The notes beneath the pieces are model-generated. The model was given only the letters and a program-made list of their open reading frames with translations, ran no database searches and was not told the origin of the DNA. Shown here piece after piece: positions 18,409 to 30,395 of a stretch of DNA of 64,000 nt (positions are counted from its first letter, which is position 1; each line of letters begins with the position of its first letter). The stretch lies in NCBI GenBank assembly GCA_012517905.1, contig JAAYUE010000033.1, forward strand, positions 1 to 64,000. Direction: 5' to 3'. Made by a program: the position numbers and the translations under genes. This DNA is from Clostridiales bacterium. GTDB lineage: Bacteria; Bacillota; Clostridia; Christensenellales; CAG-138.

Positions 18409-20202
<1,794 letters not shown>

Positions 20203-20247
20203 CGCTTTAAACGCAACCGCAGTTTTTCCGGAAAGGAGGCCCGGCCT

Positions 20248-22580
<2,333 letters not shown>

Positions 22581-22606
22581 CCACGCGTCACTGGAGTTGA
22601 TCGATC

Positions 22607-23038
22607 ATGGCAAAAACATTCAACCTCATGGTGCTCACGCCCGAGCGCGAGTTTTACAACGGCGAGGCCGTGTATGTCAGCGTGCAGACCATCGCCGGCT
22701 CCATCGGCGTGCTGGCCGGGCATGTGCCCATGGTTTCCGCGCTTGGCGTCGGCGAGCTGATCATCCATCCGGACGAGAATACTTCCCGCATGGCGTTTCA
22801 CTCAGAGGGGTTTATCGAGGTGCGTCCGGAGTGCGTCTACATTCTCTCCCAGGCCTGCGAATGGCCGGAGGAAATCGACGAAAAGCGTGCGCTCGAGGCC
22901 GAGCAGCGCGCGCAGGAGCGCCTGGAGCAGGAGCGCACGGGCGACGATCTCGGTACCATGGGCCACAGCAAAGTCGCGCTCATGCGCGCCATGACGCGGC
23001 GGCGCATCAAGTCCCTCTCCTCGCAGAACATGAAATAA
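22607..23038 (+). CDS. atpC: F1Fo ATP synthase subunit epsilon
   Basis: FNLMVLTPEREFYNGEAVYVSV...GSIGVLAGHVPMVSAL. Confidence 0.94.
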   Translation: MAKTFNLMVLTPEREFYNGEAVYVSVQTIAGSIGVLAGHVPMVSALGVGELIIHPDENTSRMAFHSEGFIEVRPECVYILSQACEWPEEIDEKRALEAEQRAQERLEQERTGDDLGTMGHSKVALMRAMTRRRIKSLSSQNMK

Positions 23039-23169: not shown

Positions 23170-24645
23170 ATGCATCATCGGCGCATCGCAAAACCGGTTG
23201 TCGGCGCGTTTTTCGCCGTGCTCGTGCTCTGCGCGGCGCTCTCCGCCTATATCGAATACGGCAGGCGCGCGCGCGAGGACGACCAGATGCGCTTTATCGC
23301 CAGCACCGTCAGCGCGCAGGCATACGAGGTGCTCTCTGCCCAGCTCAACAAGGCAAAGACGCTCGAAGCCTTCGTCGTGCAGAACGAAGGCGGAACGGAA
23401 GGGTTCGAGCGCGTTGCAAGGCTGCTCGTAACCGACAGCAGCGTGCGAAACGTGCTGCTCGCGCCCGGCGGCGTGGTCAGCGACGTATACCCGCTCAAGG
23501 GCAACGAGAGCGTGCTCGGCCACGATCTCACCGGCGTCAAGGCGGGCGACAAGGAAGCGCAGACCGCCATCGACCGCGGAACGATGATCATGGCGGGGCC
23601 TTTCACCCTCGTGCAGGGCGGCCTCGGCATCGCGGGCCGTCTGCCGGTCTATCTCGACGGGACCTTCTGGGGCATCGTCTCCGTCACGCTCAACTATCCG
23701 GACGCGCTGAGCGGACTGACCGCGCCGGACACCGTTGCGGCGCAGGGCTTTGCCTGCCGCATCTGGCGGATCAATCCGGACACGGGCATCGAGCAGACCA
23801 TCACGCAGTCCGGCGAGGGAATCGGGAGCCGCGCGTTCGATTACGCGTTTCCGATCTATAACTCCGAGTGGCACGTGACGGTCGCGCCCATCCAGCCCTG
23901 GTACACCAACGCAAGCGTGCTCTTTTCCGCGCTGGTGAGCGTGCTGTTGAGCTTCTCCGTCGCCGCGGGCGTTTCCAACACGAGCACCATCCGCCGCATG
24001 GAGCAGGAGGCCGCCGAAAGCCGCATCCTGGGCCTGCAGAAGCAGCTGGAATACGACCGCACGAACGTGCTGCTGACGCAGATCAGCTCGCACTTTTTCT
24101 ATCACACGCTCAACGCCATTCAGGCGCTGATCGTGCTCGACCCCGACGCGGCCTATAAGATGACGGAGGATTTCTCGCGCTTTCTGCGCTTTAAGGTGGA
24201 CAGCGTGAGCGCCGAAAACGGACTGGTGCCGTTTCGCGAGGAACTGCGTACCGTCCGCGCCTACGCGGAGATCAACCGCATCCAGCTGCAGGGCAGGCTC
24301 GCGATGGAATACGACGTGTTCGACGCGGACTTCCTCATCCCCGTGCTCACGGTGCAGCCCGTGGTGGAAAACGCCATCATCCACGGCATCAAACCCAAGG
24401 TCGGCGGCGGGACCGTGCGCGTGAGCCTCAGCCGCGAGGAAGGCTTCTATGTCGTCCGCGTCAGCGACGACGGCGTAGGGTATACGCCCGGCGGGGAGAC
24501 CAGCGACCACTCCGTGGGCATTTCAAACATCCGCGCGCGCATGAACAGCTTTCCCGGCTGCACCGTGGAGGTGGAGAGCGAGCCGGGCCGCGGCACGGCC
24601 GTGTCCCTTCGCTACGCGGACAATCTCGGAAAGGAATCGACATGA
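23170..24645 (+). CDS. CHASE-domain sensor histidine kinase (LytS/His_kinase-type)
   Basis: N-terminal TM, extracellular CHASE-like segment (GPFTLVQGGLGIAGRLPVYLDGTFWGIVSVTLNYP), QISSHFFYHTLNAIQ, HATPase VVENAIIHGI...DDGVGY; ATG 23170 with RBS. Confidence 0.87.
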   Translation: MHHRRIAKPVVGAFFAVLVLCAALSAYIEYGRRAREDDQMRFIASTVSAQAYEVLSAQLNKAKTLEAFVVQNEGGTEGFERVARLLVTDSSVRNVLLAPGGVVSDVYPLKGNESVLGHDLTGVKAGDKEAQTAIDRGTMIMAGPFTLVQGGLGIAGRLPVYLDGTFWGIVSVTLNYPDALSGLTAPDTVAAQGFACRIWRINPDTGIEQTITQSGEGIGSRAFDYAFPIYNSEWHVTVAPIQPWYTNASVLFSALVSVLLSFSVAAGVSNTSTIRRMEQEAAESRILGLQKQLEYDRTNVLLTQISSHFFYHTLNAIQALIVLDPDAAYKMTEDFSRFLRFKVDSVSAENGLVPFREELRTVRAYAEINRIQLQGRLAMEYDVFDADFLIPVLTVQPVVENAIIHGIKPKVGGGTVRVSLSREEGFYVVRVSDDGVGYTPGGETSDHSVGISNIRARMNSFPGCTVEVESEPGRGTAVSLRYADNLGKEST

Positions 24646-25439
24646 AGACGATACTCGTGGACGATATGGCGCTGGATATGCAGCTGCTCGAACTCAAATG
24701 CGCGGACATGCCGGAGATCGAAATCGTCGGCAAGTTCACCGTTCCCGAAGAGGCGATCGCCTACGCCGCGTCCCACGACGTGGAGTTCGCCATGCTGGAC
24801 ATCGATATGCCCGGCATGAACGGCATCGAACTCGCCATGCGCCTGCGGGAGTTGCGGCGCGACGTGATCATCGTGTTCATCACCGCGCATCCGCGCTTTG
24901 CCGTGCAGGCGTTTCAGATGAAGGCGGACTACATGGTCTTCAAGCCCTTCGACCGGGACGACATTCTGGACGTGCTCGAGCGCGCGCGGCTGCTGCAGAG
25001 CCGCCAGAAAAAGCGCGTGCACTTCCACACCTTCGGCAGCTTCGAGATGCTCGTGGACGGCAAGCCCGTGCGCTTTCACTCCGCCAAGGCAAAGGAACTC
25101 ATGGCGCTCTGCGTCTTCTACGAAGGGCGCAGCGTGGGCATCTACGACATCATCGAGCACCTCTGCGAAGGCAGCGAAAACAAGACTGCCGAAAACACCG
25201 GCTACCGCCGCACGATCAAGGAGCTCAACGACACGCTCAAAGCCTGCGGCGCGGAGGAGATCTTCGTGCGCGAGCGCGGCAGCTGCCGCATCCGGCGCGA
25301 ACTCGTCTCCTGCGACTACTATGATTTCTGGGCGGGCCGGCCGGACGCCGTCTCCCGCTTCGACGGGCGGTTTATGAGCGACTACGCCTGGGCGGAGTCC
25401 GCCATCTATCGCATGTGCGAGAAAAAAGGGCTGTCCTGA
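24642..25439 (+). CDS. Response regulator with SARP/OmpR-like winged-helix output domain
   Basis: ILVDDMALDMQ, AMLDIDMPGMNGIEL, VFKPF receiver; HFHTFGSFEMLVDGKPVRFHSAKAKELMAL output domain; ATGA overlap with the kinase. Confidence 0.87.
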   Translation: MKTILVDDMALDMQLLELKCADMPEIEIVGKFTVPEEAIAYAASHDVEFAMLDIDMPGMNGIELAMRLRELRRDVIIVFITAHPRFAVQAFQMKADYMVFKPFDRDDILDVLERARLLQSRQKKRVHFHTFGSFEMLVDGKPVRFHSAKAKELMALCVFYEGRSVGIYDIIEHLCEGSENKTAENTGYRRTIKELNDTLKACGAEEIFVRERGSCRIRRELVSCDYYDFWAGRPDAVSRFDGRFMSDYAWAESAIYRMCEKKGLS

Positions 25440-25469
25440 ACGCAGTTTTTTCGCCGAACCTCCAAAATC

Positions 25470-25502
25470 CGTACGGTTCTCGTACGGTTGATATGATATA
25501 TT
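25470..25502 (+). promoter_or_regulatory. Promoter copy 1 with 11-bp-period direct repeat
   Basis: CGTACGGTT-CT-CGTACGGTT (25470-25489), 7 bp, TATATT (25497-25502). Confidence 0.65.
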
Positions 25503-25607
25503 ATCTGGTAAATAAGTTTTCGGGACGCGTTTGACCAAGCGGAGGCGTTCGGGGACGGAAGAAAAAATTGCACATGCACGCCTGACAGCGGCGAAACAAA
25601 GACGTTT

Positions 25608-25640
25608 CGTACGGTTTTCGTACGGAACGTTTGTTATATT
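25608..25640 (+). promoter_or_regulatory. Promoter copy 2 with 11-bp-period direct repeat
   Basis: CGTACGGTT-TT-CGTACGGAA (25608-25627), 7 bp, TATATT (25635-25640). Confidence 0.65.
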
Positions 25641-25803
25641 GCTTGTAGATTCGATTACAGATTACCGATTGACAGGCAATCACCCAACAGCCTGCATTGC
25701 GCAGTCAGGATTCATTCCGTCTGAACGCTTCAAACAACACAACGATATATGTCAAGCGGGCAGCCATCCCGCAGCCGCCGGAAATGGGAAGGGGACGTGG
25801 TTT

Positions 25804-27312
<1,509 letters not shown>

Positions 27313-27327
27313 GAAGGGAGCGAGACG

Positions 27328-28383
27328 ATGCAGAAAACAAAGCTTCTCAATGTTCTGATCCCGGTGCTCTCCATCCTGCTGGCGTTTGTCATCGGCATGC
27401 TCATCATCCTCGCGCTGGGTAAAAATCCCGCCGAAGCGATCGGCTATCTCATGAAGGGCGCGTTCGGCTCCAAGACAAACCTCGCCAACACCGTCGTGCG
27501 CGCCATGCCGCTGATCTTCACGGGACTCAGCACCTGCTTTGCCTACCGCTGCGGCGTGTTCAACCTCGGCGGCGAGGGGCAGTTTCTCGCGGGCTCCATG
27601 GCGGCCATCACGGTGACGCTGCTCATCGGCCACGAGGGCTGGTGGGTCACCATCGTCGCCGTACTCGCCGGCACGCTCATGGGCGGCATCTGGGGCCTTC
27701 TGCCGGGCATTCTCAAGACCTGGCGCGGGCTGAACGAGATGATCACAACGATCATGTTCAACTACGTCGCCACGCTGTTTATGGGATATCTCTACACGAC
27801 CGCGCTGCGCGAAGGCAGCGTGCCGCAGACCGCGCCCGTGCCGGACACGACGAAGATCGGCCGCATCATACCGGACCTTCGCATCACCTGGGGCATCGTC
27901 GTCGCGATTCTGCTCGGCGTGGCCATCTGGTATTTTCTCTTCTACACCTCGAAGGGCTTCCAGCTCCGCGCCGTCGGCTTTAACCCCGTCGCGAGCAGTT
28001 ACAACGGCCTTTCGGTCAAGCGCTATATGCTCACGGCGTTCATCGTCTCCGGTGCGATCGCGGGCCTTGGCGGCGCGTGCGACATCCTGGGCACGCAGTT
28101 TCGGCTCATCAGCGGCTACGGCGGCGGCTACGGCTTCGACGGCGTGGCGCTGGCGCTGATTGCGCAGCTGCACCCGCTGGCGACGATGGCGGTGGCATAC
28201 TTCTTCGCGGTGCTCCGCGTCGGCAGCACGACCATGCAGGTCGGCACCGGCGTGCCCACGAGCGTGATCGACATCATCCAGGCGCTCGTCATCATCTTTG
28301 CCGTCGCCGGCTCTTCCATGATGTATCTGCCGAAGGTTCGAAAGTTTGTCATGAACCTCTTCGAGAAAAAGGAGGCCGTCTGA
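27328..28383 (+). CDS. ABC transporter permease (BMP/nucleoside type)
   Basis: FNLGGEGQFLAGSMAA, TWRGLNEMITTIMFNYVA, GFDGVALALIAQLHPL. Confidence 0.92.
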   Translation: MQKTKLLNVLIPVLSILLAFVIGMLIILALGKNPAEAIGYLMKGAFGSKTNLANTVVRAMPLIFTGLSTCFAYRCGVFNLGGEGQFLAGSMAAITVTLLIGHEGWWVTIVAVLAGTLMGGIWGLLPGILKTWRGLNEMITTIMFNYVATLFMGYLYTTALREGSVPQTAPVPDTTKIGRIIPDLRITWGIVVAILLGVAIWYFLFYTSKGFQLRAVGFNPVASSYNGLSVKRYMLTAFIVSGAIAGLGGACDILGTQFRLISGYGGGYGFDGVALALIAQLHPLATMAVAYFFAVLRVGSTTMQVGTGVPTSVIDIIQALVIIFAVAGSSMMYLPKVRKFVMNLFEKKEAV

Positions 28384-28385
28384 TT

Positions 28386-29315
28386 ATGAACTGGAATCTG
28401 CTTTCCGAAGTGCTCATCTCCGCCGTGCGCATGGCGACGCCGCTGCTGTTCGTGGCGCTCGCCGAGCTCTATTCCGAGCGCGCGGGCCTCGTCAACATCG
28501 GCCTCGACGGCATCATGGCGTTCGGTTCGCTGGTCGGCTTTCTCGTTTGCTTCTGGACGGGCAACCCGTTCCTGGGCGTACTCTGCGGCGCGCTCGGCGG
28601 CGTGCTGGTCAACATGGTATACGCGTTTTGCACCGTCACCCTTGCGGGACAGCAGATCGTCTACGGCATGGCGCTGAATATCTTCGCCCCCGCGCTGGCG
28701 TCGTTTATCTACCGCGTGGTGTTCGGCGTGAGCTCCACGCTCGCGCAGGCGACGCTGATGAAGACCGTCTCCATCCCGGTGCTCAAGGACGTCCCCTTCC
28801 TCGGCAAGCTGCTCTTCGACCAGACGCCGATGGTCTACGGCGTGTATCTGCTCGTCATCGTGACGGCGATCTATTTCAACCGCACGAAGTCCGGCCTCAA
28901 CTACAAGGCCGTCGGCGAATACCCCAAGGCGGCCGAGACCATGGGCATCAACGTGGTGCTGCATAAGTACATCGCCTGCATCCTCTGCGGCTTTCTCGCA
29001 GGCATGGGCGGCGCATACCTGACCACCTGCTATGTCAACACCTATTCGGACGGCATCGTCGCAGGGCGCGGCTTCATCGCGCTGGCGGCGGTCATCTTCG
29101 GCCGCTGGTCGGCCTCCGGCGTGCTGCTCGCCTGCCTGCTCTTCGGCTTCTTCGACGCCATGCAGCTGCGTCTGCAGGTCGGCACGGATCTGATTCCGTA
29201 CCAGCTCTTCCAGATGATTCCCTATGTGATGACGCTGATTGCGCTGACCATCTTCGGCAGCAAGATCGCGGGCCCGAAGAGCAAGGGCAAACCCTACTAC
29301 CGCGAGGAGCGGTAG
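28386..29315 (+). CDS. ABC transporter permease (BMP/nucleoside type)
   Basis: ATPLLFVALAELYSERAGLVNIGLDGIM, GRGFIALAAVIFGRW. Confidence 0.92.
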   Translation: MNWNLLSEVLISAVRMATPLLFVALAELYSERAGLVNIGLDGIMAFGSLVGFLVCFWTGNPFLGVLCGALGGVLVNMVYAFCTVTLAGQQIVYGMALNIFAPALASFIYRVVFGVSSTLAQATLMKTVSIPVLKDVPFLGKLLFDQTPMVYGVYLLVIVTAIYFNRTKSGLNYKAVGEYPKAAETMGINVVLHKYIACILCGFLAGMGGAYLTTCYVNTYSDGIVAGRGFIALAAVIFGRWSASGVLLACLLFGFFDAMQLRLQVGTDLIPYQLFQMIPYVMTLIALTIFGSKIAGPKSKGKPYYREER

Positions 29316-29408: not shown

Positions 29409-30395
29409 ATGAAGAAGATTCTTGCTATCGCTCTCGTTCTCTGCCTGGCCGTCGGCATGCTCGCCGGCTGCGCCAAAGAAGCCGCTCCCGCCGCGGAGAA
29501 GACATTCAAAGTCGCCATGATCTGCGATTCCAGCATTTCGGACGGCGGCTGGGGCGCCGCCTGCTACAACGGCATGACCGCCGCCGCGGAAAGCCGCGGC
29601 TGGGAAACCGCCTACACCGACGCCATCGACCAGTCCGCCTATGCCGACACCATGATCAGCTACTGCGACCTCGGCTATGACATGATCTTCGCGCCGGGCA
29701 ACCAGTACAGCGACGCCGTCGTGCAGGTCGCCGCGGATTACCCGAACGTCGCGTTCGCGGTGCTCAACGGCTCCACCGAACTGCCGACCGCCAACATCAT
29801 GAGCATCCTGCCCAACGCCGACCAGATCGGCTCCATCGCGGGCATCATCGCGGGCCTGATGAGCAAGACCAACGTCATCGGCTTCATCGGCGGCATGGAA
29901 CTCGACACCACGAAGTCCAAGCTCGCGCACTTCACCTCCGCCGCGCAGGCGATCAACCCGGACATCAAGGTCGTCTCCGCCTACGCCGGTTCGTTCAACG
30001 ACACCGCCAAGGGCATGGAGCTCGCAGCGTCCATGATCAATGAAGGCGCCGACGTGTTCTTTGGCGACGCCTCCGCCGTCGACTCCGGCGCGCGCCAGGC
30101 CATCGACCAGGCCAACGGCGACAATGTGACCATCGTCGACATCGGCCAGCCCGCCGACCTGCTCGGCCAGAACCCCTGCGTCGTGAGCAGCGTCGTCACC
30201 GACAACGCCGCCATGATCGCCATCTGCCTTGAAAAGGTCGAAACCGGCACCTTCGGCAACGAAGTGGTCTTCGGCTCGCTCGAGAACGGCGCAGTCTACC
30301 TCGGCAAGTTCAACGACGCCCTGGTGGACGCCGACATGCAGACCAAGGTTGCCGACTATATCAAGCAGCTGCAGGACGGCACCTTCGGTAACTGA
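29409..30395 (+). CDS. BMP-family substrate-binding lipoprotein
   Basis: Lipobox LAVGMLAGC; FKVAMICDSSISDGGWGAACYNGM, YDMIFAPGNQYSDAVVQVA. Confidence 0.92.
   Translation: MKKILAIALVLCLAVGMLAGCAKEAAPAAEKTFKVAMICDSSISDGGWGAACYNGMTAAAESRGWETAYTDAIDQSAYADTMISYCDLGYDMIFAPGNQYSDAVVQVAADYPNVAFAVLNGSTELPTANIMSILPNADQIGSIAGIIAGLMSKTNVIGFIGGMELDTTKSKLAHFTSAAQAINPDIKVVSAYAGSFNDTAKGMELAASMINEGADVFFGDASAVDSGARQAIDQANGDNVTIVDIGQPADLLGQNPCVVSSVVTDNAAMIAICLEKVETGTFGNEVVFGSLENGAVYLGKFNDALVDADMQTKVADYIKQLQDGTFGN

Follow-up and report, generated by a model that had tools for sequence, protein, structure and literature searches.

Two tandem repeats lying between a two-component system and an ABC transporter operon are very probably the operators of the SARP-like response regulator encoded at 24642-25439. 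This assignment is a comparative one. It is made because the same site tracks the regulator from genome to genome, even after the genes have been separated, and because relatives of the regulator carry their own versions of the site. The window, that is, the whole stretch of DNA analysed, comprises the first 64,000 nucleotides of contig JAAYUE010000033.1 from a Clostridiales bacterium. Its relevant features are the following:

23170..24645, + strand: sensor histidine kinase with CHASE, LytS/YesM-type His_kinase (PF06580) and HATPase_c domains (Pfam)
24642..25439, + strand: response regulator with LytTR-type receiver and SARP-like winged-helix output
25008..25436, + strand: SARP-like output domain, an OmpR-type winged helix followed by the first helices of a BTAD-like region
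25203..25244, + strand: predicted recognition helix GYRRTIKEL-DTL
25470..25487, + strand: putative operator 1, CGTACGGTTCTCGTACGG (CGTACGG TTCT CGTACGG), an 11-bp direct repeat; copy limited to its own genus
25494..25502, + strand: predicted promoter 1, extended -10, TGA TATATT
25602..25630, + strand: inverted arms around putative operator 2, ACGTTTCGTACG / CGTACGGAACGT; predicted hairpin, terminator-like
25608..25625, + strand: putative operator 2, CGTACGGTTTTCGTACGG (CGTACGG TTTT CGTACGG); apparently the ancestral copy, common to other genera
25632..25640, + strand: predicted promoter 2, extended -10, TGT TATATT
25804..27312, + strand: ABC transporter ATPase, first gene of the proposed target operon
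27328..28383, + strand: permease 1 (BPD_transp_2)
28377..29315, + strand: permease 2 (BPD_transp_2), start codon approximate
29409..30395, + strand: BMP/PnrA-like substrate-binding lipoprotein; aromatic sandwich kept, ribose contacts lost

The tandem site CGTACGGTTNNCGTACGG is present in two copies with starts at 25470 and 25608, 138 bp from start to start: CGTACGGTTCTCGTACGGTT occupies 25470-25489 and CGTACGGTTTTCGTACGGAA occupies 25608-25627. The preliminary description had placed both 11-bp-period repeats correctly. Exactly seven bases separate the end of each 20-bp copy from TATATT (25497-25502 and 25635-25640); if the heptamer CGTACGG is taken as the boundary, both sites have a 9-bp gap. 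A TGN triplet, absent from that description, directly precedes each TATATT and forms an extended -10. A promoter scan detected no sigma-70-like -35/-10 pair in 25430-25810, which rules out an ordinary sigma-70 promoter at the sites. The genome-wide motif search proposed earlier as a check revealed no random scatter: apart from the two copies in the window, the draft genome (2.99 Mb, 93.8% complete) contains no match with zero or one mismatch, and at two or three mismatches the motif is no commoner than a reversed-pattern control. A dispersed regulon was also rejected, as a rule one motif locus being found per genome.

Within the genus, the five further species searched have orthologues of the regulator (90-93% identical). 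In four of these, the pair of sites precedes the orthologous transporter with a spacing of 138 bp (three species) or 136 bp (one species). In the fifth, whose genome is 59% complete, a single site was detected near a contig end. The pair is kept within the genus and is therefore not a chance repeat. In two of these species (G002 and G003), the two-component genes are on another contig than the transporter and the sites remain with the transporter, which would require the regulator to act in trans. In the alignment, site 1 is restricted to the genus, whereas site 2 also occurs in two genomes from outside it; on this evidence, site 2 is taken to be ancestral and site 1 to be a genus-specific second copy.

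A regulator-profile scan of 84,980 genomes yielded 80 loci. The site is within the locus in 22 of the 25 cases where the regulator is at least 60% identical and, even allowing three mismatches, in none of the 55 where identity is 51% or less (Fisher p 8e-17, a value that ignores the relatedness of the loci). Twenty-five genomes were reached via the loci: 24 with a close regulator, together with the genome of L146, which has a 51% regulator. A site with TA at the right distance occurs in 24 of them, nearly always at one locus, and the only siteless genome is that of L146. Where the two-component genes have no adjoining site (L122, L123 and L125), one is found elsewhere in the same genome. By comparison, in 25 relatives that encode no regulator at 60% identity or above, five site matches stood against twelve control matches, which is the chance level. 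One-mismatch matches in other families of the order were likewise taken as chance, control matches being about as numerous.

The site tracks the regulator through four gene arrangements, one of them being the separation of the two-component genes from the transporter described above. In relatives of the window, it lies between regulator and transporter. In the Oscillospiraceae (Oscillibacter, Dysosmobacter), it lies between the kinase and the regulator, which is there the first gene of the transporter operon, and this position implies autoregulation. In L130, the BMP operon that the site precedes is non-orthologous, with 27-45% identity and another gene order. The L140 and L141 copies stand before a regulator gene whose downstream neighbours encode an oxidoreductase and an NCS2 xanthine-type permease. 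Neither G018 nor G030 has a close regulator, and their orthologues of the transporter (74% and 66%, respectively) have no site. Co-occurrence, the uniqueness of the motif and its tracking of the regulator strongly support the original proposal that the 24642-25439 regulator has its operator in these repeats.

Some features of the neighbourhood can be added. An ATP synthase operon (atpA, G, D, C; 18409-23038) is located directly upstream of the kinase, and the two-component genes begin about 130 bp after atpC. The oxidoreductase of the systems with the same operator at L140:5943-12004 and L141:2090-5896 is FAD-dependent in type, and L140 also contains GltD-like and hydrogenase/formate-dehydrogenase-like genes. 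Genome G425 harbours both a xanthine-permease-linked system and a BMP system.

All 30 aligned sites share an 11-bp period, a 9-bp gap and invariant TG and TAnnnT elements (30/30 for TG and TAnnnT), and their core, CGTACGGTTYYCGTACG[G/C], hardly varies. The geometry of the pho box resembles that of these sites, and PhoB promoters are activator-dependent. SARP activators as a rule use direct repeats spaced by 11 or 22 bp, of which the 3' one lies 8 bp from the -10 (PMC10936776); heptamers with 4-bp spacers are also documented (PMC5930380). The sites described here agree with this spacing, the distance to the -10 being taken as approximate.

The window kinase combines a CHASE sensor with a LytS/YesM-type catalytic core, and the eight related kinases tested all have both. 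The receiver of the regulator is closest to LytTR-type receivers, and its Asp53 and Lys101 are invariant in 14 sequences. The regulator has no match to the LytTR DNA-binding domain and a winged-helix fold in its place; a receiver with phospho-acceptor Asp and Lys thus accompanies a winged-helix output, as in OmpR/PhoB regulators. With a cutoff of E <= 0.1, Pfam Trans_reg_C matched 26 of 59 members, the window's protein not being among them. An AlphaFold model of the output domain, built with 59 relatives (pLDDT 92.9), gave AfsR (8hvr, 8.7e-7) and EmbR (2ff4, 1.4e-6) as best Foldseek matches, with OmpR/PhoB domains far behind (about 1e-2 versus about 1e-6). In hmmsearch with the sequence profile, EmbR again came first (2.1e-6). 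The domain is therefore an OmpR-type winged helix at SARP-like similarity. However, only about 40 residues, modelled as three helices, follow the winged helix, and BTAD (PF03704) was detected in none of the 59 members. Because of this BTAD stub and the lack of PF03704, the regulator is called SARP-like and not a SARP. The SARP-type output initially ascribed to it thus holds for the fold and for the 11-bp geometry but not for a complete BTAD. By analogy with the OmpR/SARP fold, the helix predicted at 25203-25244 would take part in base recognition; it is nearly constant among regulators from genomes with CGTACGG sites.

A probable mechanism can be outlined by analogy with AfsR. Each heptamer would be occupied by one regulator molecule; the two neighbouring molecules would share a face of the helix at the place of the -35 and would recruit RNA polymerase to the extended -10 nine bp downstream. 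The phosphorylated regulator would turn on the ABC/permease/permease/BMP operon, with site 1 contributing a second transcription start. The CHASE domain of the kinase would sense an extracellular ligand, probably the transported compound or a relative, which would thereby induce its own uptake. In this scheme we infer direct binding, activation over repression, phosphorylation dependence and the identity of the ligand. Since the modelled regulator has a BTAD stub only, the AfsR mechanism may carry over incompletely.

As to the ligand, the preliminary description holds only in part. It had proposed that the CHASE kinase senses a ligand related to the transported, nucleoside-like substrate. The coupling of kinase, regulator and transporter is indeed kept, which suggests a relation between the compound that is sensed and the one that is imported, and two sister systems adjoin a xanthine-type permease. 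The Bmp domain and the BPD_transp_2 permeases place the transporter with the BMP/PnrA systems. The nucleoside part of the proposal fits less well. The BmpA pocket is composed of two aromatics together with Asp98, Asp225 and Lys242, which hold the ribose (PMC13325309). In a low-identity sequence alignment, the BMP protein of the window retains the sandwich (Trp, Phe), but the three polar residues are replaced by Asn, Gly/Ala and Val, so that this alignment does not reproduce the full nucleoside pocket. With the ribose contacts lost, a free base or similar heterocycle would suit the protein better than a nucleoside.

It may be, in particular, that purine nucleobases (xanthine- or guanine-like) and not nucleosides are sensed and imported, a reading that falls slightly short of an even chance and leaves the operator assignment unaffected. 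In its favour are the NCS2 xanthine-type permease adjoining the regulator in L140 and L141 under the same operator, the aromatic sandwich without the ribose contacts of BmpA, and the related protein AtzT, found among relatives from the same search as the BMP protein, which binds free guanine at 110 nM (PMC6834077). However, the residue mapping comes from an alignment at low identity, the nearest NCBIfam models are for a 'putative B6' transporter and all score under cutoff, and no riboswitch or purine enzyme was found adjoining the transporter. A screen of the window and 13 related loci gave neither a riboswitch nor another known RNA apart from a tRNA. The purine-sensor motif of dCache domains (PMC11245519) was set aside, dCache being a different domain family from CHASE.

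The sites have a second symmetry. CGTACG is self-complementary and site 2 forms an imperfect inverted repeat as well, so that direct-repeat and dyad readings coexist. The arms around operator 2 give an RNA z of -5.5. Outside CGTACG, 79 of 132 flanking positions are complementary, compared with 49 +/- 5 when shuffled overall and 61 +/- 4 when shuffled within clades, and the arm sequences of operator 2 and of the equivalent flanks in L126-L143 vary by species (AAAG/CTTT, GAAG/CTTC and AACGCTC/GAGCGTT). The sites could accordingly be inverted repeats bound head-to-head by the same regulator or another dimer, or partly nucleic-acid hairpins, with an upstream-gene terminator carrying the operator in its stem. 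This explanation seems unlikely, although several signals favour it: the complementarity exceeds shuffles even within clades and in differing sequences, six of nine sites have an RNA hairpin with z between about -5 and -8.6, the site is often 20-40 bp past the upstream stop codon, and the hairpin of L132 has a T6 tail. However, the flanking arms are weak or missing at site 1, L130 and L131, and the hairpin is therefore not essential. In addition, the core mismatch CGAACG of L128/L129 is uncompensated, the almost invariant central GTT is asymmetric, and a terminator has no need of a fixed spacing to the -10. In a covariation test for + strand RNA, A-C mismatches in the arms were commoner than G-U, contrary to a selected + strand stem, and no RNA claim is made. 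The hairpin may reflect either a terminator that overlaps the operator or contacts of dyad symmetry.

Direct repeats occupied by an activator remain the preferred reading. The direction of control is unreadable from sequence, and a dimer that covers the -35 region can obstruct polymerase, so that the regulator might repress from these sites instead of activating. This is quite improbable. The lack of a usable -35, together with the conserved extended -10 and the fixed spacing, agrees with activator-dependent SARP promoters (PMC10936776). The agreement extends to PhoB promoters, which also depend on an activator. The notion that the repeats serve a different, unlinked regulator of the transporter, the response regulator being a bystander, could appeal to the two-component genes not adjoining the transporter in G002 and G003. 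It is hardly credible, given that both genomes still encode the response regulator, that the regulator-less G018 and G030 lack the site, and that copies of the site stand before the non-orthologous BMP operon of L130 and the regulator/xanthine-permease clusters of L140 and L141.

More distant regulators (34-46% identity) are accompanied by different repeats, which in most cases lie immediately 3' of the regulator gene. These include GTTGCAC, GTAACAG, GTTGGAC and TTCCATT; their period is likewise 11 bp, and TAnnnT follows after about 9 bp. Across 55 such loci, period 11 yields exact 7/7 repeats in 5-7 (gaps 8-10), whereas each of seven other periods yields them in 0-1; at many of the loci with paralogous regulators, no repeat was obtained. 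On the regulator tree, heptamer class requires six changes, the minimum possible, compared with a shuffled mean of 24.4, the classes having been assigned by eye and the clustering being inflated by close relatives. The predicted recognition helix differs among heptamer classes. This pattern of clade heptamer and recognition helix is, on sequence evidence, a strong lead and not a proven code. It is possible, though doubtful as a whole, that gut and anaerobic Clostridia contain a large unstudied two-component family with LytTR-type receiver and pared-down SARP output, in which each clade has its own heptamer at the 11-bp/9-bp geometry, yielding a recognition code readable from genomes, and in which the CGTACGG operator also lies in a hairpin that perhaps ends upstream transcription.

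Among the paralogous loci L146-L200, clade-specific heptamers (GTTGCAC, GTAACAG, GTTGGAC and TTTGGAC) follow right after the regulator gene, for example at L162:4277, L156:5716, L195:6887 and L191:6851. In Mediterraneibacter (L149:7053-8518 and L154:7007-8354), a GTAACAG operator lies upstream of PqqD-like and radical SAM-like genes, then a small protein. As judged from the translations only, these genes are possibly a peptide-modification cluster.

A regulator, an operator and a target operon can now be assigned to an uncharacterised two-component system ranging from Christensenellales to Oscillibacter. No published description of the system was found in the open-access literature, most subscription journals lying outside this scope. 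The operator sequences supplied are directly testable. Moreover, the shared geometry, the clade heptamers and the matching recognition helices provide a data set for the choice of DNA by SARP/OmpR-type winged helices. The results suggest that SARP-type activation is not limited to Actinomycetota, and a BTAD stub may suffice for it.

Like the SARP activators AfsR, ActII-ORF4 and EmbR, the window system has heptamers at 11-bp intervals over a missing -35, 8-9 bp from the -10, and AfsR and EmbR are the top structural matches of its output domain. Unlike these, the regulator has a receiver and is driven by a sensor kinase, its BTAD is cut to the first helices, it belongs to Bacillota and not Actinomycetota, and its target is a transporter and not antibiotic synthesis. 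The PhoB/OmpR regulators and the pho box share with it a receiver joined to a winged helix and 7-bp repeats that, separated by 4-bp spacers (an 11-bp period), take the place of the -35. However, the kinase of the window is of LytS/YesM type with CHASE, the receiver is LytTR-like and the output is nearer to SARPs. The LytS/LytTR and YesM/YesN systems have the same kinase class (PF06580) and receiver type, whereas the output domain here is SARP-like, neither LytTR nor AraC. Finally, the transporter resembles the BMP/PnrA nucleoside ABC transporters in its ATPase, two BPD_transp_2 permeases and BMP lipoprotein, and differs from them in the replacement of the residues that contact ribose.
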